From NCBI RefSeq assembly GCF_900626145.1, contig NZ_LR130817.1, positions 1,021,562 to 1,085,561 of the forward strand: DNA of 64,000 bases. Direction: 5' to 3'. Source of the stretch: Intestinimonas timonensis (GTDB lineage Bacteria > Bacillota > Clostridia > Oscillospirales > Oscillospiraceae). Made by a program: the position numbers and the translations under genes. Below the pieces are notes generated by a model that saw only the letters and a program-made list of their open reading frames with translations, ran no database searches and was not told the DNA's origin. Below are positions 16,010 through 50,553 of the stretch, piece after piece; the first letter of the stretch is position 1; every line of letters begins with the position of its first letter.

Positions 16010-16050
16010 CAGGCGGCGCGGAGTATTTCCGCGCCGCCTGTGATATTTTT
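16010..16050. terminator. Terminator between the dehydratase operon and the cotJC 3' end
   Basis: A long CAGGCGGCGCGGA / TCCGCGCCGCCTG hairpin (16010-16040) is followed on the plus strand by TGATATTTTT. It serves the dehydratase operon and, in the original chromosome, lay directly after the convergent cotJC stop codon at 16050-16052. Confidence 0.85.
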
Positions 16051-16134
16051 CAGCGATCGAAGGCGGGATTGGTAAAATAGACGTTCTTCTGATCCATTTT
16101 CTCCTTGGCCAGGCGGACCGCCTCGCCGAAGCGT
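16050..16134 (-). pseudogene. cotJC: 3' end of cotJC, separated by the integrated element
   Basis: The minus strand encodes RFGEAVRLAKEKMDQ then KNVYFTNPAFDR and a stop. This is the expected C-terminal tail of the CotJC manganese-catalase-like coat protein. It continues exactly, in frame, from the RFGE at codon 176 of the 5' part located at 50027-50553. The fragment has no start of its own. Restoring the join at the 12-bp core gives a 199-aa protein. Confidence 0.9.
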
Positions 16135-16144
16135 ACAAGATGGA
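16123..16144. other. attL: core plus left attP arm
   Basis: The core TCGCCGAAGCGT (16123-16134) is identical to 50027-50038. Positions 16129-16144 form the left-end arm, a perfect inverted complement of 50007-50022. The sequence to the left belongs to cotJC. The split occurs within the Arg-Phe-Gly-Glu codons of cotJC. Confidence 0.9.
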
Positions 16145-16156
16145 CATAAATTTCCC

Positions 16157-17650
16157 TTAGATTCTCCATTCGATTTTGATGGAATCACTGGTGGCGTAGA
16201 TGACTCGGATGAGCTGATCCACGGTCTGGCGCTTGTCATCGAAGCTCAGCTCTTCCCACATGGTCAGGTGGTTGCAGATCTCAGTGTAGTCAGCTTCTTT
16301 ATGAAGCTTCAGCTCAGAGATACGTTTCATCAGTTCCTGCTTCTTGCCATCCAGTTCTCGCACCCGTTCGCTGATGTAGCGGAAGAGGACATCATCGGCT
16401 CCGGCTATACGGTTCATCAGAGAGGAGATCTCGTCGTCAACCTGTGCCAACTCCACATTCAGTGTGGTCAATTCAGGGTTAAGGATATTCCCTTTACGCT
16501 TCCTCAGTGCCTTGAACTGCGCCAGCTTCTTGAGCATCTCATCATAGATAAGCTGTTCGAATTCATCCGAGTAGATCGTGCCAGGACCTTCGCAGGCTCT
16601 GGAGTTCAGCTTGTTAGAGCAGAGGAAGTATCTGGAGCGTGTAGTAGAGTAGTGTTTGTCTACCAGCGCATAACCACAGACACCGCATTTGATCTTTCCA
16701 GCCAGCCATGTGTTCTTGGCTTTCTGGTAGGGTTTGATTTGTTTTGCTTCCAGACACTTTGCCCTGCACTTTAGCCATAAGTCAGAAGGGATGATACCCT
16801 CGTGAGGTGCCAACACCAGATGGTTGCCCTCCAGATTCATCTGCTTGCGGCCAGTGGAGTCCTGCCCCTTATAGTAATAGCAGCCGTTTGTTCCGATGAA
16901 GTCGCTGGGGGCGTTTGCCATGATCGCGCCCTGGTCACGATAGAACTCGTAGACTGAAAGGTCTGCTCGAACATAGATGGGGTTTCTAAGCACATCTGCC
17001 AGCCGTGTGCGCCCCCACGGTTTACCGTTCTTCAGGATACCGTGTTCCTGAAAATACCGGATGATATCGCCGTAAGAACATTCGGGCTTGGAGTAGAGTT
17101 CGTAAATCAGTTTGACCTGTTCAGCTTCATCGGGTTTGATTTCATACATGGATGTTTTGATACCCTCGATAGTCGTAGGCACCAACTGAAATCCATACGG
17201 CACTCTGCCGCCCATATAGAAGCTCTTTTGACTGCGGGAGAAATATGCGTCTGTGACTCGCTTCTGAATCGTTTCGCGTTCCAGCTGTGCGAACACAATG
17301 CAGATGTTGAGCATGGCTCGGCCCATAGGGGAGGAGGTATCAAATTTTTCGGTGGTGGATACGAACTCAACTTTGTACTTTTCAAAGCGCTCCATCATCG
17401 TGGAGAAGTCCAGAATCGAGCGGCTGATGCGGTCCAGCTTATAGACAACTACTTTGCTGATGATTCCATTTTCGATATCATTCATCATTTCCGCAAAGGC
17501 AGGGCGGTCTGTGTTTTTGCCGCTGTAGCCCCTGTCGGTATATACTTTGTATGCTTCACCTCGCATCTCATATTTGCAGAACTCAATTTGGCTTTCGATA
17601 GAAATACTGTCGGCTCTGTCAACGGATTGTCTCGTGTAGATTGCGTTCAT
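16157..17650 (-). CDS. Large serine recombinase of the element
   Basis: 497-aa integrase/excisionase. The N-terminal resolvase domain holds the catalytic S9 in YTRQSVDR plus GYSGKNTDRP and KLDRISRS. The recombinase DNA-binding domain follows, then a zinc ribbon (C322, C325, C344, C353) and a C-terminal coiled coil (ELAQVDDEISSLMNRI on). The gene ends 13 bp inside attL, the usual place for an element's own integrase. AAAGGAGCT precedes the ATG. By position and target it parallels SpoIVCA of the skin element. It is expected to join and cut attP/attB across the 12-bp core. Confidence 0.93.
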   Translation of the reverse strand: MNAIYTRQSVDRADSISIESQIEFCKYEMRGEAYKVYTDRGYSGKNTDRPAFAEMMNDIENGIISKVVVYKLDRISRSILDFSTMMERFEKYKVEFVSTTEKFDTSSPMGRAMLNICIVFAQLERETIQKRVTDAYFSRSQKSFYMGGRVPYGFQLVPTTIEGIKTSMYEIKPDEAEQVKLIYELYSKPECSYGDIIRYFQEHGILKNGKPWGRTRLADVLRNPIYVRADLSVYEFYRDQGAIMANAPSDFIGTNGCYYYKGQDSTGRKQMNLEGNHLVLAPHEGIIPSDLWLKCRAKCLEAKQIKPYQKAKNTWLAGKIKCGVCGYALVDKHYSTTRSRYFLCSNKLNSRACEGPGTIYSDEFEQLIYDEMLKKLAQFKALRKRKGNILNPELTTLNVELAQVDDEISSLMNRIAGADDVLFRYISERVRELDGKKQELMKRISELKLHKEADYTEICNHLTMWEELSFDDKRQTVDQLIRVIYATSDSIKIEWRI

Positions 17651-17693
17651 TTGGTAGCTCCTTTCACATAGAAAAGAGCTGCTGACAGGTACA

Positions 17694-17918
17694 TCATACC
17701 GCAGCAGCTCCTAAATAGCTATTACTTTCATGTTGATTTGCATATTTAATAAAAACCTCAAACAGCCCTTCCTCGATGCACCGCCGCTGTTCAATGCGTT
17801 CCTCATCAGAAAGCTGCGGGGAGAGGTTTTCGATGGTGATGGTGCTTTTTCTGCCGGAAACAATATGTGCGTCACTGTCGTAAGTGAAGGGTCGGACAAT
17901 AATAGCTATCACCTCCAA
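17694..17918 (-). CDS. Small conserved protein next to the recombinase
   Basis: About 74 aa (fewer if translation begins after GGAGGTG). It contains DAHIVSGRKSTITIENLSPQLSDEERIEQRRCIEEGLFEVFIKY-like text, i.e. a short beta stretch and a basic/acidic helix. Small proteins of this kind commonly precede serine recombinases in Clostridia elements, but I cannot assign a function. The start is uncertain: TTG 17918 overlaps the best ribosome-binding site. It is a candidate recombination directionality factor by position only. Confidence 0.55.
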   Translation of the reverse strand: MEVIAIIVRPFTYDSDAHIVSGRKSTITIENLSPQLSDEERIEQRRCIEEGLFEVFIKYANQHESNSYLGAAAV

Positions 17919-17958
17919 GGTTATTACATTCTATTTTTGAAAAACCTGTCCTATGCAA

Positions 17959-18163: not shown

Positions 18164-18241
18164 GTAACCGTCAAATCTCCCTGCGCATAAAAAGGCCGCC
18201 ATCTCAGTGCCTGTGCATTGAGATGGCGGCCTGCAGTTCTA

Positions 18242-19819
18242 TTATGATTTAGGACTTCTGCATTCCTGGGGTGCGTTCACCGGGAGGAAAGATTCGGCCC
18301 AGGCTTCATCCGTCTGGCTCATGTCAGGCGCGTTGTGCAGGAGCCAAACCAGATAGCGGTAGGGATCCAGGTCGTTCTCCTTTGCGGTCTCAATCAGGCT
18401 GTAGATCACAGCGCTGGACTGGGCGCCGGCCGGGGTGTTGGAAAAGAGCCAGTTCTTCCGGCCCATGACGAATGGCTTAATGCTGCGCTCGGCACGGTTG
18501 TTGGAGAGTTCCAGCCTGCCGTCCTCCAGATAGCGCACCAGGTAGGGCCACTGCTCCCGCAGATAGTGCAGTGCCTTGCCCAAGGCGGACTTGGGCGCCG
18601 TCTTGGCGCTGGTCTCATTTGCCCATGCCAACAGAGCGTCCAGAACCGGTTTCTCCAGTTCCAGCCGCTTGGTATAGCGCTCTTCCGGCGTCAGTTCCAC
18701 GAGAGCCTGCTCCAACTGAAACAGCCTGGTGCAGTAACACTCGCCGGTGGCCGCCAGAGATTCCTGCCGTTTCTCTTTGGGCAGCGTTTGCAGCGCCTCG
18801 TCAAATTTTCGCCTAGCATGAGCCCAGCAGCCAACCACCCGGATGTTCTCGGGCAGCTTGTGGTAGCCCTGGTAGCCGTCCGCGTGCAGCCAGCCGGAAA
18901 AGTCCTTGAGGAAGGCCGCCGCGTGCTCCGCCTTCCGGCTGGTCTGGTACTCATACAGGACAATGGGATACTCGGCGCAGCCGCTGGTCCGGTAGACCCA
19001 CATGTAGGACTTGCTTGTAGAAGTCCTGCCCGGTTCCTTCAGCACCTGCAGCGTGGTCTCATCCCCGTGCAGCACGGTTTCCCGGCACAGCTTCCGGTGC
19101 AGGGCGTCATACACCGGCCGCAGCCAGGTGTCCGAGGCCTGCAGGATCCAGTTGGCCATCGTCTGCCGGGACAGCTTCAGCCCCTGCCGCTGGAACTCCT
19201 GCTCCAGACGGTACAGCGGCGCGTACATGACGAATTTCTGCGTCATGATATGGGCTACCGCCTCTGGTGAGGCGAAGCTGCCTGGGCAGAGCGTCGGCTG
19301 TTTGGGTGTTTTCCGGAGATTGCCTTCGCCTGTTTCCGCCTCGCACTGCTTGCAGGCGTAGGTGTAGTACACATCCTCCCGGATCCAGAACCGGGCCGGC
19401 TCCATCTTCAGGCTCCGGTGCACCTCTTTCCCAATCTCCTCCATCACGGCACCGCAGGTATCACAGGTGCGCTCTTCTTCGCAAAGGCGGTGCTCCACCA
19501 CTTCCGTAGGGGTTCCCTCCGGCACGATATCCAGTACATTGCCGCTGTGCCGCTTGCGGGCATGGGCCTTCACCGCCACCTGTTCCGCTGTGGCATTTTT
19601 CGTCCCATAGGCGTAGGCCTCCGCCTCATTTGCCATGAGAGACAGTTGGTCCATTAGGCCCTCCTGGAGCCGCTCTGAGGATGTGCCAAACTGCCGTTTT
19701 TTTGCAAGACCAAGCTGCTCCAGAAGCCATTGGTTCTGGAGCTTCAATTCTTCATATTCCGCCCGTGAGATGGTCACCATTTCCGGGGTGCTTGCGGCAG
19801 TGTTCTTCTCGTTTTCCAT
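18242..19819 (-). CDS. tnpC: IS66 transposase TnpC (copy A)
   Basis: 525-aa DDE transposase of IS66. It has an N-terminal coiled segment (SRAEYEELKLQNQWLLEQL), Cys pairs of a zinc-binding domain (TCDTCGAV and ACKQCE), and a DDE core with LHGDETTLQV, LHADGYQGYHKL and LSNNRAERSIKPFVMGRKN. Nearly identical to copies B and C except for the last ~30 residues (HNAPDMSQTDEAWAE here). Confidence 0.93.
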   Translation of the reverse strand: MENEKNTAASTPEMVTISRAEYEELKLQNQWLLEQLGLAKKRQFGTSSERLQEGLMDQLSLMANEAEAYAYGTKNATAEQVAVKAHARKRHSGNVLDIVPEGTPTEVVEHRLCEEERTCDTCGAVMEEIGKEVHRSLKMEPARFWIREDVYYTYACKQCEAETGEGNLRKTPKQPTLCPGSFASPEAVAHIMTQKFVMYAPLYRLEQEFQRQGLKLSRQTMANWILQASDTWLRPVYDALHRKLCRETVLHGDETTLQVLKEPGRTSTSKSYMWVYRTSGCAEYPIVLYEYQTSRKAEHAAAFLKDFSGWLHADGYQGYHKLPENIRVVGCWAHARRKFDEALQTLPKEKRQESLAATGECYCTRLFQLEQALVELTPEERYTKRLELEKPVLDALLAWANETSAKTAPKSALGKALHYLREQWPYLVRYLEDGRLELSNNRAERSIKPFVMGRKNWLFSNTPAGAQSSAVIYSLIETAKENDLDPYRYLVWLLHNAPDMSQTDEAWAESFLPVNAPQECRSPKS

Positions 19820-19876
19820 GAGAAAATGATACCATAAAACAGGTTAAAAAGCCAGCATTTTCAATGCTTTCCGGTA

Positions 19877-20233
19877 TCAGATCACGCTCAGGCCGCTCAC
19901 TGCTTTGTTTGCCTTCGGCTGCTCTGTCTTCAGCCCCTCCATCAGCCAGCGGTACTGTTGAGGTGTTAAGGCCTGCACTTCCTTCGTACTCCGAGGCCAT
20001 TGGAAACTGCCGCTCTCCAGACGCTTATACAGCAGCAGAAAGCCGTCTCCTTCCCAGTAAAGCGCCTTGAGCCGGTCCCGCCGCCGCCCGCAGAAGAGAA
20101 ACAGCGCCCGCTGAAACGGGTCCATCTGGAACTGGCTCTTTACCAGGTTTGCCAGCCCGTCAATGCCCCGCCGCAGGTCTGTGTATCCGCAGGCGATGTA
20201 CACCGGACAGCTGCAACTAAAATCGTTCAGCAT
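19877..20233 (-). CDS. tnpB: IS66 accessory protein TnpB (copy A)
   Basis: 118 aa, IS66 Orf2-like. It starts NDFSCSCPVYIACGYTDLRRG, followed by the conserved FLFCGRRRDRLKALYWEGDGF block. It overlaps tnpA by 7 bp. It is needed with TnpA for transposition in characterised IS66 elements. Confidence 0.92.
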   Translation of the reverse strand: MLNDFSCSCPVYIACGYTDLRRGIDGLANLVKSQFQMDPFQRALFLFCGRRRDRLKALYWEGDGFLLLYKRLESGSFQWPRSTKEVQALTPQQYRWLMEGLKTEQPKANKAVSGLSVI

Positions 20234-20577
20234 ATGTGCAGCATCTCAACCAATATTTTCAGCTGCTCCATCCCACACGACGGATAGATATCCATTCTCA
20301 CATTCCCGACATACAGCGTAGCGGAATGTTCTGCTTCGTTGCGGCATTCCTGCCTTGGAATCGGCACTTTTGCAAAGGCAACCCTGTCCTGTCCTTCCTG
20401 CTGTGCCATGCTGCCAGCAACAGACAGTACTTCTCGCTCCCAGCGATAATATGTAGTTGGTGTGATTCCCTGTTGCCTGCACCATTCCCGAACCGATCGC
20501 CCGCTGCTCCGGCATTCCTTGATTGCTGAAGCCCATTCCTGTAACTGTGCCTGGTGTTTCAACTCGATAGATGTCAC
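20227..20577 (-). CDS. tnpA: IS66 accessory protein TnpA (copy A)
   Basis: 116 aa with a helix-turn-helix (SVREWCRQQGITPTTYYRWE), the IS66 Orf1 DNA-binding protein. Identical in sequence to copy B but unrelated in detail to the TnpA of copy C. Confidence 0.88.
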   Translation of the reverse strand: MTSIELKHQAQLQEWASAIKECRSSGRSVREWCRQQGITPTTYYRWEREVLSVAGSMAQQEGQDRVAFAKVPIPRQECRNEAEHSATLYVGNVRMDIYPSCGMEQLKILVEMLHIC

Positions 20578-20674
20578 TGCAAGACCCCCCGTACAAAATA
20601 GTGCTGGAACGTTCCGCTACGTTCCAGCACTATTATCTCATACATGTCTATCCGCCCGCTCCTTTGACGGTTAC

Positions 20675-20759
20675 CTACAAGCTCCGGGACCTGGGCCAGG
20701 CCCTGGGCTTCAATGTGGGCTGGTCTGCGGAGAAGGGCGTGTATATCGAGACGAAATAA
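20675..20759 (+). pseudogene. Tail of a stalk-domain (copper amine oxidase N-like) protein
   Basis: Directly after the IS66 end the plus strand reads YKLRDLGQALGFNVGW, SAEKGVYIETK and a stop. This is the last repeat unit of the surface stalk domain family. The upstream portion is missing, so only the 3' end of a truncated cell-surface gene remains. Confidence 0.65.
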
Positions 20760-20871
20760 CTCCGCCGCGGCTGACTGGCCCATCAGATACTTTATTTATA
20801 AAATATGGGCTCCTGATATAAAGAAACGGGGTATTTTGCCGATCATATAAACAGAGAGGGGGGATTGGACC

Positions 20872-21190
20872 ATGCCGGAGACAGACAGAGAGGACCGGAG
20901 GGTGCAGGAGGTCATGGAGCTGACCAGCGCCATGATGAATCGCTACTATCATAGCAACGATGTGGAGTTTGTGATCGCCCAGATGGACGAGGATATCGTT
21001 TGGCTGGGGACGGCAGAGCATGAGTTCGCAGTGGGGAGAGAGATCGTGTCCGGTATTTTCCGGCGATTTGCGGGTCAGGTCCCCAAGTGCAATATCTCGG
21101 AGGAGGAGTACCACGTGCTCCGTATGGGGCCGGATGCCTACCTGTGCAGCGGCCGTATGTGGATCGTAACCGACGCCTCCACCGGGATTA
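20872..21190 (+). pseudogene. NTF2/SnoaL-like domain protein, truncated by an IS5-type element
   Basis: About 106 residues from ATG 20872 with GGGGG-type ribosome site: MELTSAMMNRYYHSND, GTAEHEFAVGREIVSG, CSGRMWIVTDASTGI. This matches the NTF2-like sensor domains found at the N-terminus of gut Clostridia signalling proteins. After STGI the frame enters the insertion sequence and becomes unrelated, so the output domain is lost. Confidence 0.6.
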
Positions 21191-21985
21191 GGCCTTGTTT
21201 GAAAAATAAAAGTTGCACAAGAAACCAAGTTATGCGAAGCTATGAGCATGAAACGATATGAATTAACAAAAGAACAATGGGAACGAATCAAGCCGCTGCT
21301 GCCACCGGAAGAAACGGGAAAGCGGGGTCGTCCCCGGAAGGATAACCGGATCATGCTCAACGGAATGCTCTGGATCGTCCGGAGCGGTGCGCAGTGGCGT
21401 GAGCTGCCGGAGACCTATGGTCCTTGGCAGTCTATATACGCAAGATTCGCCAAATGGCGGAATGAGGGCACTCTGGAAGCGGTATTCCACACACTGTCTG
21501 CGGACGCGGATATGGAGAACCTGAGCATGGACTCCACTTGCGTAAAGGTGCATGAAAGCGCAAATGGCGGGGAAAAAAACGGCGGATAAGGCGGTTGGCC
21601 GTACCAAAGGCGGGTGGAACACAAAGCTCCACGCTGTCGTAGACGGTCTGGGAAACCCGGTGGAGTTCCTTCTCTCCGCTGGAAATGACCACGATTCGGT
21701 TCACGCTGTTGAACTGCTGAAAAAGGTCAGAATCGGCGGGAGTGCCGTGCTGGCAGACCGGGCCTATGGTGCCCGGACGATTCGGGAATATATCTCAGCG
21801 CACGGGGCCAGCTATGTGATCCCGCCGCAAAGCAACGTTTCCGATCCCTGGCCGGTTGACTGGCATCTGTATAAAGAACGCCATCTGGTGGAGTGTTTTT
21901 TCCAGAAAATCAAGTGGTTTCGCAGAATCGCCACCAGATATGACAAGTCGGATGCTTCCTTCCTAGCCTTTGTGTATGGAGGGAT
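21191..21985 (+). mobile_element. IS5-family (IS427-like) element, right end missing
   Basis: The left end begins near GGCCTTGTTTGAAAAAT (21191). Transposase frames follow, but after SFLAFVY the protein departs from the family and no matching inverted terminal repeat is found on the right, so the element is cut near 21980. Confidence 0.65.
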
Positions 21986-22109
21986 GCCAGTGCGCTGTAA
22001 ACCAATCAAACTGCAAATAAAAAAAGGCATATCGAATCTCATCGTTTTTACGACAAAATTCGATATGCCTAACACAAACGGATTCCCCGGGGCCGGGTCT
22101 GTCAAATAG
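21242..22109 (+). pseudogene. IS5/IS427-type transposase in two frames, C-terminus lost
   Basis: Frame 1 (21242-21589) has YELTKEQWERIKPLLPPE and WIVRSGAQWRELPETYG. Frame 2 (from 21552) has GGWNTKLHAVVDGLGN, LADRAYGAR and HLVECFFQKIKWFRRIATRYDK. They meet at a run of seven A at about 21573-21579. IS427-group elements commonly use slippage or frameshifting there; a +1 (or -2) change would fuse them. The last ~45 residues of frame 2 are not transposase, so the copy is almost certainly inactive. Confidence 0.75.
22025..22070. other. Hairpin, 13-bp stem
   Basis: AGGCATATCGAAT (22025-22037) and ATTCGATATGCCT (22058-22070) pair perfectly with a 20-nt loop. It may be a terminator or a relic of a mobile-element end. 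Confidence 0.5.
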
Positions 22110-22418
22110 CAAAAGAAAAGAGGATTTTCTTTTCCGTTTCAGCGGACGGTCTAGAAAATCCTCTTTTCTATGCCACGGGTTATACAGTTGTTTTGATTCA
22201 AAAAGAATTGCGCACCGAGATCACTCTTTCTATAAAACTTTTAATATATCATATAGTTGAAGTCGAAAGAATGATAACACAGTCGGAAGGTCGAAATTTG
22301 CTGACAAATGGAAAGAAAACAGTGCTTTTACTGAAATTGGGTTTAATTCATATTGCGTTTCCTACGTTCCTACGCTAAAATGATGGTAGGCAGAACAACA
22401 GGAGGAGGTTTGAGCGAC
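22110..22418. other. AT-rich non-coding stretch with a 17-bp stem hairpin
   Basis: AGAAAAGAGGATTTTCT (22114-22130) and AGAAAATCCTCTTTTCT (22153-22169) form a perfect long hairpin with an inner TCCG/CGGA pair. The remaining ~250 bp are AT-rich and show no gene I can support. The composition differs from the chromosome, so this is probably debris of earlier insertions. Confidence 0.5.
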
Positions 22419-22724
22419 ATGAAATATCTTCTGTACCGATCCCCTGGAAGCATAGAGAAGGATGTGACAAAACACGAACTGGTGGCTGTGGAATTTGGTA
22501 CAGACATCTATGAAGTCACGGAGGCTCTGGTCGAAGCAGCGGCTCAAGATCTGTCTGGCATGCCGGAATACGAGGGGTGCCAGACTGCTGCCTATGCTCC
22601 AGAACTGTTAAAGCCGTTCCGCAAGGTGAAACGCTACGACTACGAGATGACGGGTATTGTCTATCCCGCACACGGGGATGAAAATATCTTGATTGACTAT
22701 GGAATTGTAGAAAAAGCAGAATAA
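22419..22724 (+). CDS. Hypothetical protein
   Basis: 101 aa, start ATG 22419 behind AGGAGGT. Sequence MKYLLYRSPGSIEKDVTK and so on, with no membrane segment, signal or known motif. The codon use and ribosome site support a real gene. It is followed by a terminator hairpin and then IS66 copy B. Function unknown. Confidence 0.55.
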   Translation: MKYLLYRSPGSIEKDVTKHELVAVEFGTDIYEVTEALVEAAAQDLSGMPEYEGCQTAAYAPELLKPFRKVKRYDYEMTGIVYPAHGDENILIDYGIVEKAE

Positions 22725-22730
22725 AACACA

Positions 22731-22770
22731 AAAAGGGAAACCCGGATTTGGTCCAGGTTTCCCTTTGCTC
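22731..22770 (+). terminator. Terminator of the hypothetical gene
   Basis: GGGAAACC / GGTTTCCC with inner partial pairing, then TTTGCTC, directly after the stop at 22724 and 15 bp before IS66 copy B. Confidence 0.6.
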
Positions 22771-22881
22771 ATTGTGTCATAAACGTAACCGTCAAAAGAG
22801 CAGGCGGATAGACATGTATGAGATAATAGTGCTGGAACGTAGCGGAACGTTCCAGCACTATTTTGTACGGGGGGTCTTGCA

Positions 22882-23232
22882 GTGACATCTATCGAGTTGA
22901 AACACCAGGCACAGTTACAGGAATGGGCTTCAGCAATCAAGGAATGCCGGAGCAGCGGGCGATCGGTTCGGGAATGGTGCAGGCAACAGGGAATCACACC
23001 AACTACATATTATCGCTGGGAGCGAGAAGTACTGTCTGTTGCTGGCAGCATGGCACAGCAGGAAGGACAGGACAGGGTTGCCTTTGCAAAAGTGCCGATT
23101 CCAAGGCAGGAATGCCGCAACGAAGCAGAACATTCCGCTACGCTGTATGTCGGGAATGTGAGAATGGATATCTATCCGTCGTGTGGGATGGAGCAGCTGA
23201 AAATATTGGTTGAGATGCTGCACATATGCTGA
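22882..23232 (+). CDS. tnpA: IS66 accessory protein TnpA (copy B)
   Basis: 116-aa helix-turn-helix protein, same sequence as copy A. It overlaps tnpB by 7 bp. A perfect hairpin built on AATAGTGCTGGAACG lies just upstream (about 22827-22863). Confidence 0.88.
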   Translation: MTSIELKHQAQLQEWASAIKECRSSGRSVREWCRQQGITPTTYYRWEREVLSVAGSMAQQEGQDRVAFAKVPIPRQECRNEAEHSATLYVGNVRMDIYPSCGMEQLKILVEMLHIC

Positions 23233-23582: not shown

Positions 23583-23639
23583 TACCGGAAAGCATTGAAA
23601 ATGCTGGCTTTTTAACCTGTTTTATGGTATCATTTTCTC

Positions 23640-25326: not shown

Positions 25327-25357
25327 GTTTCGCACTATCTGGCAGAATTTTCAGTCA

Positions 25358-42640: not shown

Positions 42641-42691
42641 TTTCACCATGGTAAGATGAGCCGCGGCCCGCCAAGGCTCACAGGAGATATG

Positions 42692-42729
42692 GTAGACTAT
42701 CCATATTATGGGTAGTCTACTTTTTTGTT
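42692..42729 (+). terminator. Terminator after the MATE gene
   Basis: GTAGACTA / TAGTCTAC with an inner CC/GG pair, followed by TTTTTTG. It separates the Sel1-MATE pair from the SPFH operon. Confidence 0.85.
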
Positions 42730-42760
42730 TGCCAGATCAACTGAGAACGGAGAGACAGAT

Positions 42761-43933
42761 ATGAGCTTGAAATTTTTGGATGTCATCAACTATGAGGGAG
42801 GAAACGACGTTCTGGTGTGGAAGCACCCCTGTGAGGACTTCAACACCGGTTCCCACCTGATCGTACATGAGTCCCAGGAGGCTCTCTTTATGTGCAACGG
42901 CCAGGTACTGGATACCTTCGGCCCGGGCCGGCACGACCTGAAAACGGAGAATATCCCCCTGCTGCGCCGCCTGCTGAATATCCCCACCGGGGGTGTGTCG
43001 CCCTTTCACTGCGAAGTCTACTACATCAACAAGTCCATCCCCATGGATCTGAAGTGGGGGACGCCCGACCAGGTCATCGCCATGGACCCCCAGTTCCATA
43101 TCCTGATCCACGCCGGCGCCAACGGCGGCATGGGCGTCCAGATCGGGGACAGCAAGCAATTCCTGGTGAGCTTTAACGGCACCAACCGGGAATTTACCAC
43201 GGAATCCCTGACCAGCTACTTCCGGGAGATGATCGTCACCCGGGTCAAATCACAATTGACCACGCTGCTCAGCCAGGTGAGTTTTACCATCGCCAATGCC
43301 CACCTGAATGAGATCTCCGCCGCCATGCAGGAGGTGCTTGGGGAGGAGATGGCTGAATTCGGCGTGAAGCTGGTGAAATTCTTCGTCTCCGGCATCCGTC
43401 TGGCTGATGAAGACTATCAGAAGATCCAGTCCGCCCTGTCCGACGCCAGCGCTCTGGGCATTTCCTCCATGGCGGAAAAGCAGCGCATGGATCTGCTGGG
43501 CTATAACTGGACAGATGAAAGAATGGCGGAGATCGCCAAGGAGTACGCCCAAAACCCCGGCAGCGCCAATAATGTGGGCGGCATGATGGCTCAGATGCCC
43601 CTGGCTTTCGGATTTGGCCAGATGCTCCGGGGAGCCGCCAAGCCTCTGATGGATCAGGCGTTCTCCCAGCCGCCCAAAGCCTTCGGTGGCCAGCAGAGCG
43701 CCCCGGCGGCGCCCGCATCCCCCTTCACGCCGCCGCCCTATCCCTTCGGTGCGGCCCCCAGCCCGCTGAAAGCCAAGGCGGCGGAGCCTGCTCCCGCCCC
43801 TGCGGCGACCGCCACCCCTGCCCAGGAGGACCCGGTAGCCGTGCTGCAAAAATTAAAGACCATGCTGGACGCGGGACTGATCCCTCAGGAGGTCTACGAC
43901 AAGAAAATTCAGGAAGTGCTCAGCCGGATGTGA
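42761..43933 (+). CDS. SPFH-domain protein with C-terminal SHOCT domain (YdjI-like)
   Basis: 390 aa. Residues ~1-260 are the SPFH/virion-core-protein type (DVLVWKHPCEDFNTGSHL, LFMCNGQVLDTFGPGRHDL, FFVSGIRLADEDYQKI). A Pro/Ala-rich linker follows, and the last ~33 residues are a SHOCT motif (VLQKLKTMLDAGLIPQEVYDKKIQEVL). B. subtilis YdjI has this plan and links the phage-shock protein PspA to the membrane together with YdjG/YdjH. No transmembrane helix; membrane binding would be through partners encoded next to it. First gene after a terminator, so it opens the operon. Confidence 0.85.
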   Translation: MSLKFLDVINYEGGNDVLVWKHPCEDFNTGSHLIVHESQEALFMCNGQVLDTFGPGRHDLKTENIPLLRRLLNIPTGGVSPFHCEVYYINKSIPMDLKWGTPDQVIAMDPQFHILIHAGANGGMGVQIGDSKQFLVSFNGTNREFTTESLTSYFREMIVTRVKSQLTTLLSQVSFTIANAHLNEISAAMQEVLGEEMAEFGVKLVKFFVSGIRLADEDYQKIQSALSDASALGISSMAEKQRMDLLGYNWTDERMAEIAKEYAQNPGSANNVGGMMAQMPLAFGFGQMLRGAAKPLMDQAFSQPPKAFGGQQSAPAAPASPFTPPPYPFGAAPSPLKAKAAEPAPAPAATATPAQEDPVAVLQKLKTMLDAGLIPQEVYDKKIQEVLSRM

Positions 43934-43947
43934 GGAAGGAGCGAGAT

Positions 43948-44364
43948 ATGGGATATAAGATCGGATTTTCCATCGGGTATGGGATCGTATTTCTGGCCTA
44001 CGAGGCCATTGTGTTTTTGCTGACAGGCTTCACTCGGCCGGGGGCCTGGCTGGGCCTTGCATGCACGGTTCTGGTGCTGGGACTGTCTCTCGCCGCTGTC
44101 TGGAAGGACGCCTTCCAGGCCGGGATCGCCCATCTGCCAATGGCCCTGGGTGTGGTATTGACCATCTTTTTTGTGCTTCAGCTGGCGGCGGGCGTCATCG
44201 TCACCTTCCTGCCGCTCAAATGGGGCGCTATTGTGGAGATCGTGCTGGTGGCGGCCTGTCTGCTCTGCGGCGGCGGGACGGTGCTGGGCGGCAGAATGAT
44301 TGCGGAACGGGAGCGGGAAAACCGCGCCAAGAGAGCCGCGCGAAATGAGGAGGAAGAAAGATGA
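43948..44364 (+). CDS. Four-helix membrane protein of the SPFH operon
   Basis: 138 aa, four hydrophobic segments and a charged Arg/Glu-rich C-terminal tail (RMIAERERENRAKRAARNEEEE). Family not recognised. AAGGAG before ATG 43948; 4-bp overlap with the next gene. Probably a membrane anchor for the cluster. Confidence 0.7.
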   Translation: MGYKIGFSIGYGIVFLAYEAIVFLLTGFTRPGAWLGLACTVLVLGLSLAAVWKDAFQAGIAHLPMALGVVLTIFFVLQLAAGVIVTFLPLKWGAIVEIVLVAACLLCGGGTVLGGRMIAERERENRAKRAARNEEEER

Positions 44365-44798
44365 AGTGTAAAGCCTGCGGATACGAGGGGGAGACCTTTC
44401 CCCATACCCCCATGGGAAAATACTGCTGCCCCCAGTGCGGGGCAGAGCAGACAGGAGCTGCGCTGCCAATGGAGGATGACTATGCGGAGCAGCTCCGAAA
44501 GGTCCGGCAGGCGGCCGTTGCCGAGCAGGAGCGACAGGCGCAGGAGGTGCGGATGAAGGCGGAAAAAGCGTCGCAGGATCGCCGGGAAGCGGAGGCGCTG
44601 CGCCGCCAGAAAGAGCAGAAGGTGAGGAAGCGTATCCGCAGGGAAAGACTTCTCGCCTGCATCGTGCCGGTGGCCATCATCATTTTTACCATTGTGCTTC
44701 TGCGGGATCCAGCGGCAAAAGGAGCCGGTTTTCTCGGTTTTGTAGTCATCATCGCCTGCATCAGTGCGATCATCGGAGCCTTGACGAGAAAGAAATAA
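44361..44798 (+). CDS. Zinc-ribbon, coiled-coil membrane protein
   Basis: 145 aa. CKACGYEG...CCPQCG zinc ribbon at the N-terminus, a long charged helix (EQLRKVRQAAVAEQERQAQEV on), and two C-terminal membrane helices. Architecture like YdjG-type proteins that recruit SPFH partners. Expected topology: ribbon and coil in the cytoplasm. Confidence 0.75.
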   Translation: MKCKACGYEGETFPHTPMGKYCCPQCGAEQTGAALPMEDDYAEQLRKVRQAAVAEQERQAQEVRMKAEKASQDRREAEALRRQKEQKVRKRIRRERLLACIVPVAIIIFTIVLLRDPAAKGAGFLGFVVIIACISAIIGALTRKK

Positions 44799-44815
44799 AC
44801 GAAAGGATGCGAAGT

Positions 44816-45790
44816 ATGGAAAAATTACAATGCAGTGTGTGCGGCGGCGCTCTGGTGATGAGCGACGACGGAGAAAAGGCGGTCTGCGAAAGCTGCGGCA
44901 TGAGCTTCAAGAAGGAAACCGTCAAGAAAATGATCATGGAGCTGTCCGGCCCGGTAAAGGTGGAGGGCATCCAGAACAGCGACTCTCTGGCCGACCGGGC
45001 GGAGACCTTCCTGCGGCTGGGAGAGACGGAAAAGGCTCATGCTGCTTTCCGGCAGATGACCGATGAGTATCCTGCCGACTACCGGGGCTGGTGGGGCCTG
45101 ACCCGGCTGATGGACTGGGAAAAGTACTTCTATGACAGCGGCACAGGCAAGGCTGACATGCCGCTGGTGTGCAAGCGGGCACTGGAGTTCGCGCTGGAGG
45201 AGGCAAAAAAGGAGATCCAGGACTATTTTTCTGAAAAAGTCTCCACGGTAAAAACCCAGACCGATCAGCGTCATCGTGATGAGCAGGCGGCTGCGGAAGA
45301 AAAGCGTCGCAATGAGCAGGCGGCCGAAGAAGAATATCAGAAAAAACTCAGGACCTACGAAAACGCGCTGGAAGAGGTCCGCAGTGCCTTTGACAAGGCG
45401 CATGACCAGTTCCGTGCAGAGGAAGAAGTGACAAAGGCTCACCGCCGAGAACTTGATGCGTATTTGGAGAACATATCTCCCGGCGTCGCGCATCCGATCC
45501 GAAAGGGAAATCTGATTGCTCTGGTGATCGGCTGTGTCTTCGCAGGGATCGCTTTGTTTGGCGTTGGCGTCACCTCGGGGATGGAGCTTCTTATGACGAT
45601 CTCTTTTGTAGCGCTCCCTCTTGGTCTGCTGATCTTCCGCATCTGTCGGTGCAGCAGGACTTCAAATCGCATCGATGCGTTGAAACAGGCTATCGCACAG
45701 AGCGAGCAAAAGCAGGACACATTCAGAGCGCAGAGAGACAAGGCGGGCGTCGAATTGGAGGCCCTGCGCCGCAACGCGCCTGTCCGCTGA
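44816..45790 (+). CDS. Zinc-ribbon protein with TPR-like region, coiled coil and two membrane helices
   Basis: 324 aa. CSVCGGAL...CESCGMSFKK zinc ribbon, then a TPR-like stretch (DRAETFLRLGETEKAHAAFRQM), a long coiled coil, two membrane segments (LIALVIGCVFAGIALFGVG and ISFVALPLGLLIFRI) and a second short coil. Start ATG 44816 behind GAAAGGA. A second ribbon-plus-membrane protein in the same operon suggests hetero-assembly. Confidence 0.75.
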   Translation: MEKLQCSVCGGALVMSDDGEKAVCESCGMSFKKETVKKMIMELSGPVKVEGIQNSDSLADRAETFLRLGETEKAHAAFRQMTDEYPADYRGWWGLTRLMDWEKYFYDSGTGKADMPLVCKRALEFALEEAKKEIQDYFSEKVSTVKTQTDQRHRDEQAAAEEKRRNEQAAEEEYQKKLRTYENALEEVRSAFDKAHDQFRAEEEVTKAHRRELDAYLENISPGVAHPIRKGNLIALVIGCVFAGIALFGVGVTSGMELLMTISFVALPLGLLIFRICRCSRTSNRIDALKQAIAQSEQKQDTFRAQRDKAGVELEALRRNAPVR

Positions 45791-45849
45791 AAAACAATGT
45801 GAGGTGTCGGTCCTTATCCGGTTCCCGAAAATGAAAGGAGAGTAAGATC

Positions 45850-45996
45850 ATGAGCGATTTCAGATGCCCTTATTATTACTACGAGAACGGTGAGTGGAAA
45901 TGTCTCCACTGCTCCGGCAATTCCACGCTGCATGATTTCGACACATACTGCACAAGCGAAAGTCGTTGTCGTGAATGCCCCTACTACAATCGTTAA
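45850..45996 (+). CDS. 48-aa Cys-rich small protein
   Basis: ATG 45850 to TAA 45996 with AAGGAG 10 nt upstream. Six Cys in the pattern C-P-Y4 ... CLHC ... C ... CRECPYYN, suggesting one or two small zinc or iron sites. Below the size usually annotated. Gap to the next gene 20 bp, in the same direction, so probably part of the operon. Confidence 0.6.
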   Translation: MSDFRCPYYYYENGEWKCLHCSGNSTLHDFDTYCTSESRCRECPYYNR

Positions 45997-46016
45997 AAAA
46001 GAGAGGTGCGAAGCAT

Positions 46017-46760
46017 ATGACATTGGAAGAAGCCATTCATCTGGCAAATAATGGCGATCAGGAGGCCATGTTCCAGCTGGGCCAGTATTACTGGAAACAG
46101 GAAAAACAGTATCAGGAAGCTCAAAACTGGTATCTGAAGGGTGCGGAAGCCGGAGATGTCCGCTGTATGGCTCTGGCAGCCCTGAGCGGCAACGTTCTGG
46201 CCCATGCCCTGCGGAAAACAGTGGGCGCGCCTGCCGCGGCGGAGTGTGTGCGGGATCTGGAGACCTGCCTGTCCTGGGCGGCGCAGGCTCGTGCCAACGG
46301 CGGAAAATGTGACTCCGCCAGTATCGAGACTGAACTGGGTGTGTGCTGTTTTTTGGCTGCACTGAATGAGGAGAATGAGGAGCGTTCCACCGCGTATCTG
46401 CTGCGGGCAAGAGAACTGCTGCGGGCCAACCATCCCGCGCAGGACCCCGAGGCCCGCCTCTATCTGGCGTTTGCACTGGACAGGTGCTCCCGATTGGACG
46501 GCGGCATGCGTGACTTGGATTCACGACTGTATGTGGATCTGCTGACCGACATCTGTGAGAACCACCGCACAGAGGTAAAGGACGGCGCCGTGGCCTGCTA
46601 TTATTTGGGCGCGGCGTACCTGATGGGCAACGGCTGCAAAAAGGACGATAACAAGGCCTATCAGTGGATGGCCACAGCCCAGCAGATGGGCTTTGACTGT
46701 CAGGAAATGCTCAGAGGCTTTAAGAAAAAGCTGATGGGCGGTTATGTATACAAAGGATAA
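46017..46760 (+). CDS. Sel1-repeat protein of the SPFH-HerA cluster
   Basis: 247 aa. Sel1-like units at both ends: LANNGDQEAMFQLGQYYWKQ...AQNWYLKGAEAGDVRCM and ACYYLGAAYLMGNGCKKDDNKAYQWMATAQQMG. No signal peptide. GAGAGG upstream of ATG 46017. Likely an adaptor between the membrane proteins and the ATPase. Confidence 0.75.
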   Translation: MTLEEAIHLANNGDQEAMFQLGQYYWKQEKQYQEAQNWYLKGAEAGDVRCMALAALSGNVLAHALRKTVGAPAAAECVRDLETCLSWAAQARANGGKCDSASIETELGVCCFLAALNEENEERSTAYLLRARELLRANHPAQDPEARLYLAFALDRCSRLDGGMRDLDSRLYVDLLTDICENHRTEVKDGAVACYYLGAAYLMGNGCKKDDNKAYQWMATAQQMGFDCQEMLRGFKKKLMGGYVYKG

Positions 46761-46765
46761 CAGGG

Positions 46766-46792
46766 AACGGCCCGACATATCGGCGGGCCGTT
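46766..46792. terminator. Weak hairpin before the HerA-like gene
   Basis: AACGGCCCG / CGGGCCGTT stem, followed only by TCAAAATC. It may reduce but need not stop transcription into the ATPase gene. Confidence 0.4.
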
Positions 46793-46830
46793 TCAAAATC
46801 ATAAGAAGAAAAGAGTAAGGAGGCGGCGGT

Positions 46831-49440
46831 ATGCCCCTGTTTCAAGGAACCGAGCTGGAGGATGGCCGCTATCTGGGCCTGACCGTCCGGGAGGTGACGG
46901 CCCTGCCCCATATGGATGTGTTCGGCCCGGACTCCGGGCGGATGGGACAGGTCTTTGAGGGTCTGCTGGGAGACCTGGCCCGGCTGTGCGGGGAGTCTGC
47001 GGCGCTGGAGCTTCTCTGGCTGTCCCAGCCGGTGAGCGGACAGAAGTTTCCCGCCCGGGTACGGCTGTTCCTGCTGCTGCGGAAGCTGTCCGTCACGGCA
47101 GCGCAGGCAGAGCGGGAGATGGACGCCTTCCTGTCCGCCATGGAGGCGGTGCTCACCCAGAAGGGCTGCTCCCTGTCCGGGGGAGAGCCGTTGACGGGCC
47201 TGCTGGTACAGTCGGAGGGGCAGCTCCACGCTCTTGTGCGGCAGGAGAAGGTTCCCATGAGCTTATTCGCACAATTTCCCTATTACCACTATGACACCCT
47301 GCAGGGCTGCGCGTTGGACTTCGCATCCCTTCTGACGGTCCTGTGCGGCGCGCCGGGTGCGGCGCTGTCCGTGCAGGTCATCCCTGCGGCCCTGTCCCCG
47401 GAGGAACAGTTCGCCACCGAGCAGATGCGCCAGATGCTTTCTCAGGCGGTCAGCGGAATGCCCGGGCAAACCCCCGTCATGGGGGACGACACCGCCCGCA
47501 GGCCGCTGGAAACCTACACCTATTACGCCCAGGACAGCGGCCCCCGCTTTCTGATGAACCTGCTGGTAGGCGGGCAGCCCGCCGCCTGTGCCACCCTGCT
47601 GGCCCGGGTCCAGAGCGCCCTGCGGGGGGTGTCCCTGGCAGACACCGACCTGACGGGAGCCTTCTCCCTGGGGCGGGACCTGCTGTTCTCCCCATGGAAC
47701 ATCAGCAGCGCCCTTATCTACCAGTACCGGGACGGGGCGCTGTGGCAGAATTTGCAGGGCATGGAGGCCCTCATGCGGCTGCCGTATCTCTACACGGAGG
47801 GGGAGACGGCGAAGCTGATACAGATCCCCGTGGACGACGGCAGCCTGCCCGGCATCGTCAGTAACCGGGTGGATCTGTCCGGGGCGCTGTTTGACACGGC
47901 GGTGCTGGCGGTGGACAATATCGTCTTCGGTCACCTGGCGGGAGATGAGCGGGTGCGCATCGGCGCGCCGCTGAAAGCCTTCACCCGCCACGGCCTTATC
48001 GTGGGCACCCCCGGCACCGGCAAGACCACCTTCTCCGTGGATATGCTTTTGCAGTTCTATGAGAAGGGCATCCCCTTCCTGGCCATTGAGCCCACGAAAA
48101 CCGAATACCGGGCAATGATCGATACCATCCCGGATCTGCAGATCTTCACCCCCGGCAACAGCGGTGTATCCCCCTACCTCTGCAATCCCTTCCAGCCGCC
48201 CCGGAACATCACGGTAGAGAAGTACATCCCCAGTTTGGTCAGCGCCTTTCAGGCGGCGTTTTCCATGCCTTCGCCCCTGGATATGATTTTCCTGTCCGCT
48301 GTCCGGGCGGCCTATACGAAATACGGCTGGAAGAACAGCAGCAGGGCAGGAGACCCGGATGTGCAGCCCTTCGGCCTGTATGAGTTCATCCTCTGCTTCA
48401 AGGAGCTGGTGGCCAACTCCGGATACAGCGGCGAGGTTCGCAGTAATTTGCAGTCCGGTGGTACGCTGCGGCTGATGAATCTGCTGGAACAGAACGCCAG
48501 TATTTATGATACCATTCACACCATTCCGCTGGATGATCTGCTGTCCAAGCCAACCGTGCTGGAGCTGAATGCCATTGAAAACCAGGAGCAGAAAGCACTG
48601 ATTATGGCACTTATGCTGATCTCCATCTGCACCCACACCAAGCAGAACCAAAAGGGCGACGGAGAGCTGAAAAACATCATCCTCATTGACGAGGCCCATG
48701 TACTGCTGGGGGGCAAGTCCCGGTCCGACGGTGCGGGCGGGCAGGACACCACAGTGCGTGCCCTGCAAAACATGATTGCGGAGATCCGCTCCTACGGCAC
48801 GGGCATCCTCATTGCCGACCAGTCGCCCACGGCGGTCAGCCGGCCTATCGTGGCCAATACGGATATCAAAGTGTCCTTCCGTCTGGTGCAGGGGGAGGAG
48901 AAGGCGGCTCTGGCGGACAGTACCGGCATGGAGGAGACCCAGCGGCAGCATCTGGGCCGTCTGGGCGTGGGAGAGGCCTTCGTCTATTACAGCCGCCTGG
49001 ACACGCCCCAGTTAGTGAAGACCACCGACAGCCGGGCGGCCAAAGGTATCCGCCTGTCTGTCCCAGACGAGGAGATTGCCGGACGCATGACCTATTGGAC
49101 CCATTATGGGGATCAGCTCAAGCCCTACCGGGAATGCGAACTCTGTCCCCAGTGCGCCGGCGGCTGCGATCTTGTGCTTCGGGACCGGGCGGACTACTAC
49201 GCCGCTCGGGTCCTGCAGGAAAACGGCGTCAAAATGAAGGACCGCAGCACCGCGGCACAGTATGCAATCCTGTTGCACAAACCCCTGGCCCTCTGGGAGG
49301 GGACGCCGGAGCTGGACTTTGAACGGCTGTGCTTCTGCGCCCGCTTACGGCTTCTGCGGAAGACAGCGTTGGAAAAAGGCTTTGTATTTACCCCGCGGGA
49401 AATGGAGACTATTCTGCTTCCCCGGGAGAAGGGAGAATAA
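46831..49440 (+). CDS. HerA/VirB4-like ATPase
   Basis: 869 aa. N-terminal ~380 residues are a family-specific domain. The ATPase core has Walker A GTPGTGKTT (392-400), FLAIEPTKTEYR, Walker B NIILIDEAH (D620, E621) and ILIADQSPTAV as sensor strand. Near the C-terminus C769, C772, C775 and C779 make a zinc knuckle. HerA-FtsK fold proteins pump DNA or polypeptides as hexameric rings; DUF87-type members occur in antiphage and membrane-associated conflict systems. No NurA nuclease or T4SS genes accompany it. GGAGGCGG upstream of ATG. Confidence 0.8.
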   Translation: MPLFQGTELEDGRYLGLTVREVTALPHMDVFGPDSGRMGQVFEGLLGDLARLCGESAALELLWLSQPVSGQKFPARVRLFLLLRKLSVTAAQAEREMDAFLSAMEAVLTQKGCSLSGGEPLTGLLVQSEGQLHALVRQEKVPMSLFAQFPYYHYDTLQGCALDFASLLTVLCGAPGAALSVQVIPAALSPEEQFATEQMRQMLSQAVSGMPGQTPVMGDDTARRPLETYTYYAQDSGPRFLMNLLVGGQPAACATLLARVQSALRGVSLADTDLTGAFSLGRDLLFSPWNISSALIYQYRDGALWQNLQGMEALMRLPYLYTEGETAKLIQIPVDDGSLPGIVSNRVDLSGALFDTAVLAVDNIVFGHLAGDERVRIGAPLKAFTRHGLIVGTPGTGKTTFSVDMLLQFYEKGIPFLAIEPTKTEYRAMIDTIPDLQIFTPGNSGVSPYLCNPFQPPRNITVEKYIPSLVSAFQAAFSMPSPLDMIFLSAVRAAYTKYGWKNSSRAGDPDVQPFGLYEFILCFKELVANSGYSGEVRSNLQSGGTLRLMNLLEQNASIYDTIHTIPLDDLLSKPTVLELNAIENQEQKALIMALMLISICTHTKQNQKGDGELKNIILIDEAHVLLGGKSRSDGAGGQDTTVRALQNMIAEIRSYGTGILIADQSPTAVSRPIVANTDIKVSFRLVQGEEKAALADSTGMEETQRQHLGRLGVGEAFVYYSRLDTPQLVKTTDSRAAKGIRLSVPDEEIAGRMTYWTHYGDQLKPYRECELCPQCAGGCDLVLRDRADYYAARVLQENGVKMKDRSTAAQYAILLHKPLALWEGTPELDFERLCFCARLRLLRKTALEKGFVFTPREMETILLPREKGE

Positions 49441-49443
49441 CAT

Positions 49444-49917
49444 ATGTGCGATGAATTCGGAAGCAGCATGGATGTCTCCGGCGATTTGAGTACAGATAAT
49501 GATGTTTCCTGCGAGGAGAGCGGCATCGATTTTGAATCGGAGGGCATCTTCGACGCGCCCCAGGAAGATATACAGACGGATATCTCCGACGGAGCTGGGG
49601 ATGACGTGTATGAGGCCAGCAGTCTGGATGAGATCGAGATCCTGGAGGAGAGCGGCGACACCCACACCATTGCGGAGCGGATGGAGGAGCTGTACGGAGA
49701 GAACCCTGTGGAGGAGCTGACTCCCGCCCAGGAGGGCCTGAGGGAGTTTGAGGAGAGCGCATCCGAACGGCTGGATGAGATCCAAGAGCATAAAGAGGCT
49801 CTGGAGGACCTGAAGTCTGCCTTGCTGGCGGGCGACGCAACCGCTCTGGAGATGTTTGGACTGGAAACGCCGGATACCTCCGAAGAGGAGGGGCACCAGA
49901 AGGTGCTGACCCGGTAA
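49444..49917 (+). CDS. Highly acidic protein after the HerA-like ATPase
   Basis: 157 aa, very rich in Asp/Glu, with a probable coiled stretch (LREFEESASERLDEIQEHKEALEDLK). Starts 3 bp after the ATPase stop with GGGAGAAGGGAG upstream. No known family. May be a regulator, substrate mimic or secreted/translocated cargo of the ATPase; all of these are guesses. Confidence 0.65.
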   Translation: MCDEFGSSMDVSGDLSTDNDVSCEESGIDFESEGIFDAPQEDIQTDISDGAGDDVYEASSLDEIEILEESGDTHTIAERMEELYGENPVEELTPAQEGLREFEESASERLDEIQEHKEALEDLKSALLAGDATALEMFGLETPDTSEEEGHQKVLTR

Positions 49918-49930
49918 GCAGATATATTCA

Positions 49931-49977
49931 AAAAAAGGGTTCTGAGCTTTGCGCGTTGCAAAGCTCAGAACCCTTTT
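49931..49977. terminator. Bidirectional terminator at the element's right end
   Basis: GGGTTCTGAGCTTTGC / GCAAAGCTCAGAACCC perfect stem (49937-49973) with six A before and four T after. It ends the SPFH-HerA operon on the plus strand and the truncated cotJ operon on the minus strand. Confidence 0.92.
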
Positions 49978-49983
49978 CATATG

Positions 49984-50553
49984 TCAGCAGCTCTTGCTTG
50001 TCCCGTTCCATCTTGTACGCTTTGTTTCGCCGAAGCGTTGGAAATGGACGATCTCCCGCTCACGAAGGAAACGGATGACATCGTTGACATCGGGGTCGTC
50101 GCTGAGGCGCAGGATATTATCGTAAGTGACCCGGGCCTTCTGCTCGGCAGCCATGTTTTCAGTGAGATCGGCGATGACATCGCCCTTCACGCCGATACTG
50201 GCAGCATTCCAGGGGGCACCGGAGGCAGCAGTGGGGTAGATGCCCGTGGTATGGTCTACGAAATAGGGGGCGAAGGAGGGGCATTTCCTGACCTCCTCGT
50301 CGGTGAGCTCACGAGTGAGCTGATGGACAATGGCGCCGATCATCTCCAGATGGCCCAGCTCCTCAGTGCCGATATCGGTGAGGAGGGCTTTGAGTTCCGG
50401 ATAGGGCATGGCGTAGCGCTGACTCAGGTAGCGCAGGGAAGCCCCCAGTTCTCCATCCGGACCACCGTACTGGCTGATGATAAAGGAGGCCAGCTTAGGA
50501 TTTGGATTTTTGATATGCACAGGATATTGCAGCTTTTTTTCATAGGAAAACAT
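49984..50553 (-). CDS. cotJC: CotJC manganese-catalase-like coat protein, 3' end replaced by element sequence
   Basis: 189 aa as it stands. Ferritin-like di-manganese fold with ALLTDIGTEELGHLEMIGAIV and VTYDNILRLSDDPDV...REREIVHFQRFGE. The last 13 residues (TKRTRWNGTSKSC) come from the element, and the native tail is at 16050-16134. Spore-coat catalase relatives are made in the mother cell. The replaced tail lies after the last metal-binding helix residues, so partial function is possible. Start ATG 50553 with GGGAGAGG, 1 bp after the cotJAB stop. Confidence 0.88.
   Translation of the reverse strand: MFSYEKKLQYPVHIKNPNPKLASFIISQYGGPDGELGASLRYLSQRYAMPYPELKALLTDIGTEELGHLEMIGAIVHQLTRELTDEEVRKCPSFAPYFVDHTTGIYPTAASGAPWNAASIGVKGDVIADLTENMAAEQKARVTYDNILRLSDDPDVNDVIRFLREREIVHFQRFGETKRTRWNGTSKSC
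50007..50038. other. attR: right attP arm plus core
   Basis: The core TCGCCGAAGCGT at 50027-50038 equals 16123-16134. The arm TCCATCTTGTACGCTT (50007-50022) is the exact inverted complement of 16129-16144. The sequence to the right is cotJC. Confidence 0.9.

Follow-up and report, generated by a model that had tools for sequence, protein, structure and literature searches.

A 64,000-nucleotide stretch of the Intestinimonas timonensis genome (contig NZ_LR130817.1, positions 1,021,562 to 1,085,561; here called the window, and numbered from its first letter) contains a mobile element that splits cotJC, a coat enzyme gene. We estimate a probability of about 0.7 that this site-specific element is cut out by its own large serine recombinase (LSR) during sporulation, which is predicted to rejoin a 199-amino-acid (aa) CotJC in the mother cell. 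The element is a real, site-specific cotJC-intervening element and belongs to a large group. Regulated excision appears likely; excision, its timing and the role of a small open reading frame beside the LSR are inferred. With confidence only a little better than even, we further propose that the cotJC of clostridia undergoes DNA splicing at several sites. Distantly related LSR lineages, at least four in number and three of them with all closest matches in cotJC, would independently have made DNA introns at codons beside metal-ligand motifs. About a third of the matching sampled species have the gene in two or three pieces, and selection would preserve the ability of these to rejoin through timed excision in every mother cell that forms a spore. 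The junction features of the window, located by sequence, translation, Pfam and joining of the flanks, are:

16050-16134, minus strand: cotJC 3' exon, the last 27 codons with the core and the stop (sequence, translation)
16123-16134, no strand: LSR-side core repeat of the element (sequence, joining)
16129-16144, no strand: attP half, inverted-repeat arm of 16 bp (sequence)
16135-50038, no strand: intervening element, 33,904 bp (distance between the cores)
16157-17650, minus strand: LSR, 497 aa (Pfam Resolvase, Recombinase, Zn-ribbon)
50007-50022, no strand: attP half, inverted-repeat arm of 16 bp (sequence)
50027-50038, no strand: LSR-distal core repeat of the element (sequence, joining)
50027-50553, minus strand: cotJC 5' exon with the core, from codon 1 to about codon 176 (translation)

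A first-pass annotation had placed the two pieces of cotJC 33.9 kb apart and proposed that they rejoin in frame at cores 16123-16134 and 50027-50038 (TCGCCGAAGCGT); the sequence and a scripted joining of the flanks bear this out. The joined flanks form one open frame of 199 aa (MFSYEKK...NPAFDR) whose C-terminus is that of intact relatives, and the core shared by both junctions is a 12-bp direct repeat. The 16-bp perfect inverted repeat, of attP form, that the annotation had obtained by joining the element's ends was also found (TCCATCTTGTACGCTT), as was the LSR at the left end (497 aa, minus strand), which holds the catalytic Y.R.S motif. In G082, the genome nearest to the window, the attP inverted repeat is 18 bp long and none of 200 shuffles of the G082 junction reaches this length. 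A search for strains with uninterrupted cotJC and the predicted product had been suggested, and such a relative exists: protein P0121 (119 member sequences) has 199 aa and is 96% identical. P0121 is identical over 177 residues to P0162 (236 aa), which is broken at the window's site by a different element end, and intact and split states of cotJC thus occur in close relatives. Taken as a whole, the window element lies within the coding region of a sporulation gene, carries its own LSR, has a core and an attP repeat, and restores the frame on removal, which is the skin-like form.

The same gene is broken at recurring places across the family. We searched 250 genomes from the family of G003, several of them labelled metagenome assemblies, with the rejoined CotJC, and 196 had a match. 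Classes were assigned by hand from match ranges and the lists then checked: 116 genomes were intact, 63 had the gene in at least two pieces with ends at recurring sites, 10 had one piece ending at such a site, three had a distant paralogue only, and four with unclear pieces were set aside as ambiguous (G035, G136, G175, G183). G013 was counted as intact though a second, split copy is present, and in G152 and G182, both among the 63, the middle piece is missing and no site is visible from both sides. Breaks fall near residues 30-32 (site A, 22 genomes), 62-65 (site B, 33 genomes), 135-137 (site C, 12 genomes) and 174-176 (site D, that of the window, 15 genomes). Ends at two sites were seen in 19 of the 63 split genomes, some judged from one side only, and the whole-genome search found the gene in three pieces in 4 of 12 carriers (G001, G003, G008, G011). 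Named carriers include Flavonifractor sp. An10, whose cotJC is in three pieces with elements at sites B and D, and Pseudoflavonifractor phocaeensis An858, with elements at sites C and D. The same breakpoints recur in an order sample (158 of 197 genomes with a match) and a class sample (65 of 99). CotJC residues E35, E65, H68, E137 and H170 align to residues 35, 66, 69, 148 and 181 of the catalase structure 1jku, which are its metal ligands, and each of the four breaks lies within about six residues of an aligned ligand position.

Other origins of split or duplicated genes were considered. Assembly breaks were rejected as a general cause, since the breakpoints recur at four places and an LSR lies between the exons of every pair that could be read. 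Mixed excised and integrated alleles within one genome were considered for G113, where two contig ends overlap at 92% over 109 bases, and for G013 and G333, each of which has two different copies (about 69% and 72% alike); none of the three is evidence of excision. On contig 1 of G153 the site-C downstream exon is opposite in orientation to the other pieces, which suggests recombinational inversion or an assembly error. At locus L178 of G017, where no LSR was found on the stretch, two extra CotJC 3' tails lie about 3 and 6 kb downstream of the full downstream exon and resemble scars of earlier elements.

The window's gene does not end at the core when it is unexcised, a point left out by the first-pass annotation. 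Its 5' part runs on into the element to a stop at 49984, giving 189 aa; Pfam PF05067 (Mn_catalase) matches this part (49984-50553, E 1.9e-52), and the 189-aa form retains all five residues aligned with metal ligands and loses the C-terminal tail only. It might be supposed that this truncated CotJC still works and that excision is irrelevant, since it has its own stop and E35, E65, H68, E137 and H170 all precede the break in the alignment to 1jku. We regard this as quite improbable, given that the window's 3' exon is still in frame and close to that of intact relatives, and that tolerance of truncation cannot explain the wider pattern, as the cuts at sites A, B and C come ahead of ligand motifs or inside them.

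Each site is associated with its own recombinases. Forty stretches were fetched for comparison of the elements; 31 exon pairs could be read on one stretch, and each of them has an LSR between its exons. Median LSR identity is 23-29% between sites and 46-63% within a site. Site B comprises two LSR groups, one formed by G044, G142 and G160 and the other by all remaining genomes; at site D, the LSR of G064 shares just 37% identity with its nearest match. There are thus more than four LSR lineages in all. The catalytic motif is kept in all 49 LSRs examined, outgroups included. One LSR per site was then searched in the 250-genome sample, with counts that include the query's own genome. That of site A matched 25 genomes at E up to 1e-70, every one with a site-A break: 21 of the 63 split genomes, three of the one-piece genomes and the second copy of G013. 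That of site B had 39 matches, spread over 38 genomes. Its 30 best, each in a different genome, are no more than about 18 kb from a site-B piece (26 of them no more than 500 bp away), a proximity that the other nine, weaker matches lack. For site C there were 23 matches in 21 genomes, and the 11 best are no more than 4.5 kb from a site-C piece. The window's LSR, at site D, had its seven best matches (63-97% identity) at that site, and below these cotJC and non-cotJC copies are mixed, which suggests that site D recruits from a broader mobile family.

The target of the window's LSR group was also approached from the recombinase. Genome contigs were scanned with an alignment of 33 LSRs and the best 80 loci were kept. 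A CotJC tail was detected by tblastn (E <1e-3) at 11 of these loci, all among the 12 with at least 58% LSR identity (L001-L012); ten tails stand directly behind the LSR and that of L010 about 1.2 kb away, and the twelfth locus, L002, has a tail of the same family that was identified by eye. The same tblastn search found no CotJC tail at the 68 loci of lower identity, a distribution that ties the window's LSR group to the cotJC target.

Removal of the elements in silico restores the gene in most cases. We joined 29 split genes by script, choosing the best CotJC fit among joins that share at least 3 nt, so that success is partly built in. Complete CotJC resulted from 21 of the 29 joins (198-201 aa, and one of 230 aa). 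Six others had no further exon on the stretch, G008 gained three extra residues at site B, and G036 was unclear. When the join was set only by the longest shared word, 13 of 34 junctions produced a full-length gene, the words being 7-13 nt long. An attP inverted repeat clearly above shuffles (at most 4 of 200) occurs in 6 of 18 other junctions (G044, G050, G155, G249, G082, G012).

The strongest indication that rejoining takes place comes from selection on downstream exons. From a nearest-neighbour comparison of omega, the ratio of nonsynonymous to synonymous rates, we chose near same-site pairs. G064 and G208 share a site-B element, collinear over 9.2 kb at 88%, and G222 and G099 share a site-C element, collinear over 11.7 kb at 89%. 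The downstream exons show 24 synonymous and no nonsynonymous changes over 106 codons in the first pair (exon-3 counts were not used, exon 3 of G208 being off the stretch), and 14 and none over 59 codons in the second; random change would give such all-synonymous outcomes with chances of about 6e-16 and 4e-10. Synonymous divergence (dS) of LSR, downstream exon and upstream exon is 0.93, 0.43 and 0.59 in G064/G208 and 0.79, 0.52 and 1.00 in G222/G099, from which the elements appear to have diverged for about as long as the gene. Four further comparisons, involving five species, gave downstream-exon omega of 0.03-0.10, with LSRs too diverged to be sure of a shared insertion. No in-frame start with a Shine-Dalgarno sequence precedes the downstream exons of the two main pairs, and from purifying selection on exons with no evident start of their own we conclude that the cell makes the complete product, for which rejoining is needed. 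This pattern, in two pairs and at sites B and C only, is difficult to account for without regular rejoining of the gene. The conserved downstream pieces could also be accounted for if the pieces were expressed separately and assembled as a split protein; we give this almost no credence, in view of the missing starts and of a site-D piece of just 27 codons.

A possible means of timing lies upstream of the LSR, where the following features were located:

17694-17918, minus strand: small open reading frame (ORF), 72-74 aa (TTG or GTG start), upstream of the LSR (script; conserved position)
17928-17956, minus strand: sigma-E-like promoter GCATAGG-N14-AATAGAAT, upstream of the small ORF

By script, the small ORF was detected at 12 of the 14 loci from the window's LSR group and at all three outgroup loci, and by its position only it is a candidate excision (directionality) factor. 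TnpW of Tn4451 was considered as its identity; the window's ORF had no match in Pfam. The arrangement GCATAGG-N14-AATA(C/G)AAT precedes the small ORF in the window, G082 and G001; G002, G003 and G005-G007 have forms related to it. A sigma-E-like site lies 225-285 nt upstream of the LSR in five of eight site-D elements (the window and four of the seven others). A sequence overlapping the promoter, TAGGACARGT, resembles the Bacillus subtilis SpoIIID consensus. It is no exact match to the KRTAACARK consensus given for Clostridioides difficile in the available text of PMC5025042. The same text has the C. difficile skin element controlled by a recombination directionality factor (RDF) that is driven by sigma-E and SpoIIID; the parallel is a lead, not a test. 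The available part of PMC3416734 lists cotJC in the sigma-E regulon.

In the mechanism that we propose, a sigma-E-type sporulation sigma factor would switch on the small protein encoded beside the recombinase, and this protein would turn the recombinase from insertion to excision. Excision from the mother cell would rebuild the 199-aa CotJC there, and a gene split by two elements would need two excisions. The element would be lost from the mother cell only, which dies, and would be retained by the spore; with loss confined to a dying cell, a mother-cell gene would be a cheap harbour.

The main competing account has these as ordinary mobile elements: conserved codons of cotJC happen to serve their integrases as attB, the gene is simply inactivated, and there is no regulated excision. 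We consider it unlikely. Mobilization and transposase genes in the cargo and LSRs of the window's lineage that move between hosts are in keeping with it, and the seven genomes of the genus of G064 (two intact, one split at site A, one at C, two at B and D, and one without a match) indicate that gain and loss are fast. It does not readily account for the downstream exons without evident starts, unchanged in protein sequence in both shared-element pairs, or for the full-length, conserved CotJC that most joins yield.

Several observations weigh against timed excision. LSRs 90-97% identical to the window's occur in other hosts (G001, G029, G082), so that recent transfer is likely and the exons lingering there could be young; the G082 LSR is 97% identical to the window's, yet the CotJC 5' part of G082 is only 76% identical. 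The window's LSR lineage moves horizontally, and the window copy may be recent. Three elements (A_G029, A_G072, B_G008) have C-truncated LSRs and probably cannot excise, with exons that are still free of stops. Several joins depend on cores of 3-5 nt, and at 12 of the 18 other junctions, including the only one at site A, the attP inverted repeat does not stand out clearly from shuffles. The LSR dS of G222/G099 is above that of the downstream exon but below that of the upstream exon. At site D the 3' exon is too short for such comparison, with nearest-neighbour omega over about 20 codons ranging from 0.13 (window) to 0.81 (G012). The small ORF also precedes LSRs of a related group outside cotJC. 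Sigma-E-like sites number 14 in 33 elements (245.5 kb) versus 2.4 expected, an expectation taken from single-base shuffles in 50-nt blocks only and a sigma-E consensus that was loosened after viewing three aligned sequences, two of them among the 14 hits; the site is missing from three of the eight site-D and 18 of the 25 other elements. The window's attP was not found in viral contigs and no excision product was seen.

The first-pass suggestion that the element may be a developmental switch and not just a parasite therefore stands in part. Site-specific insertion beside an LSR and exact rejoining are supported, and downstream-exon selection (two pairs, at sites B and C) and the sigma-E-like promoter favour a switch. 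The window's own copy could be both parasite and switch, and its mobility is as well supported as a developmental role.

The remaining features of the window are the cargo of the element and the genes upstream of cotJC:

18164-32610, no strand: cargo with three near-identical IS66 stretches, a DDE transposase, peroxide/superoxide genes, a major facilitator superfamily (MFS) transporter and a short-chain dehydrogenase/reductase (SDR) (Pfam)
33013-49917, no strand: cargo with a NikA-like mobilization protein, an AAA ATPase, a polymerase of RNA-dependent RNA polymerase (RdRP) fold, and MatE, Band-7, Sel1 and HerA-like genes
50555-51010, minus strand: CotJA and CotJB domains in a single 151-aa ORF, upstream of cotJC (Pfam CotJA, CotJB)
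51072-51079, minus strand: putative -10 of the cotJ operon, CATAGGAT

At 54 of 58 loci a CATANNNT site of this kind lies upstream of cotJC, at a distance of 440-720 nt. The IS66 stretches (18164-20674, 22785-25295 and 30539-32610) are 98-99% alike, with two inverted around the DDE transposase; between the second and third lie the peroxide and superoxide defence genes, which comprise a flavin adenine dinucleotide (FAD) disulfide reductase with a thioredoxin domain, AhpC and desulfoferrodoxin. A long ORF at 35563-38694 (plus strand) matches the eukaryotic-type RdRP model of Pfam (E 1.3e-14) and has a DYDGD motif, which also occurs in a 1028-aa ORF on the G082 stretch. YonO of SP-beta, likewise an intervening element, is a relative of this fold. 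Sel1, Band-7, zinc-ribbon and HerA-like ATPase genes cluster at 38657-49917, and 4.2 kb of this region (39517-43751) is 92.7% identical in G001. The HerA gene was considered as part of a defence system; HerA-type ATPases matched (best mad8, 56.7 bits), and no full system was recognised. Pfam identified no phage structural genes among the element proteins scanned, and the six peptide patterns used found no such LSR in viral contigs. The window's LSR scored 139.8 bits for CcrB among the SCCmec Ccr models, against a cut-off of 900 bits. By eye, the compact elements at sites B and C (L141, L143, L144, L148) have metabolic or repair genes next to their LSR, namely pyrimidine nucleoside phosphorylase, Tag and Ogt, and not phage genes.

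The sporulation genes described as targets of intervening elements are sigK, spsM, spoVFB, gerE and yabG, as far as the available text of the sources goes (PMC5595907, PMC10747680, PMC5025042, PMC11222575, PMC4028888, PMC3416734, PMC6222199, PMC9542656). No report of a cotJC-intervening element was found in the literature searched, which covers few subscription papers. In the parts of these sources available, the known elements are a handful, each at one place in one gene. If our reading holds, about a third of the sampled genomes of one family that match CotJC have this coat-enzyme gene split by distantly related recombinases, at four fixed sites and sometimes at two at once. Such replication in nature would allow one to ask what draws these elements to mother-cell genes, how a parasite turns into a developmental switch and how LSR directionality is tied to sporulation. 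In gene calls these species could appear with cotJC truncated or absent, and the elements are a source of new LSR-attB pairs with conserved target codons.

Developmental excision by a serine recombinase is also represented by XisF, which removes the fdxN element of heterocyst-forming cyanobacteria. That system belongs to another phylum and another gene, and the window's LSR scores 133.5 bits with the XisF model NCBIfam NF041201, far under the family cut-off of 375 bits. In C. difficile R20291 the prophage phi027 adjoins CDR20291_1465, a CotJC homologue, a locus not described as a split gene in the available text of PMC11222575. SP-beta in spsM, vfbin in spoVFB and yin in yabG likewise split sporulation genes (PMC10747680, in the text available); they differ from the window element in being prophage-like and in their genes. 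Closer is gin in gerE of Bacillus cereus (GirC, GirX), also a non-phage element in a sporulation gene that rejoins at a short core, according to the available part of PMC5595907; gin uses one gene and one site, and its excision was shown in vivo and in vitro. The skin elements of sigK, with SpoIVCA in B. subtilis and CD1231 with the RDF CD1234 in C. difficile, are likewise LSR elements that split a mother-cell gene, which is rebuilt on removal. Unlike sigK, cotJC encodes a coat enzyme and not a sigma factor; its excision here is predicted, and it offers four sites to distantly related LSR lineages, with up to two used at once.

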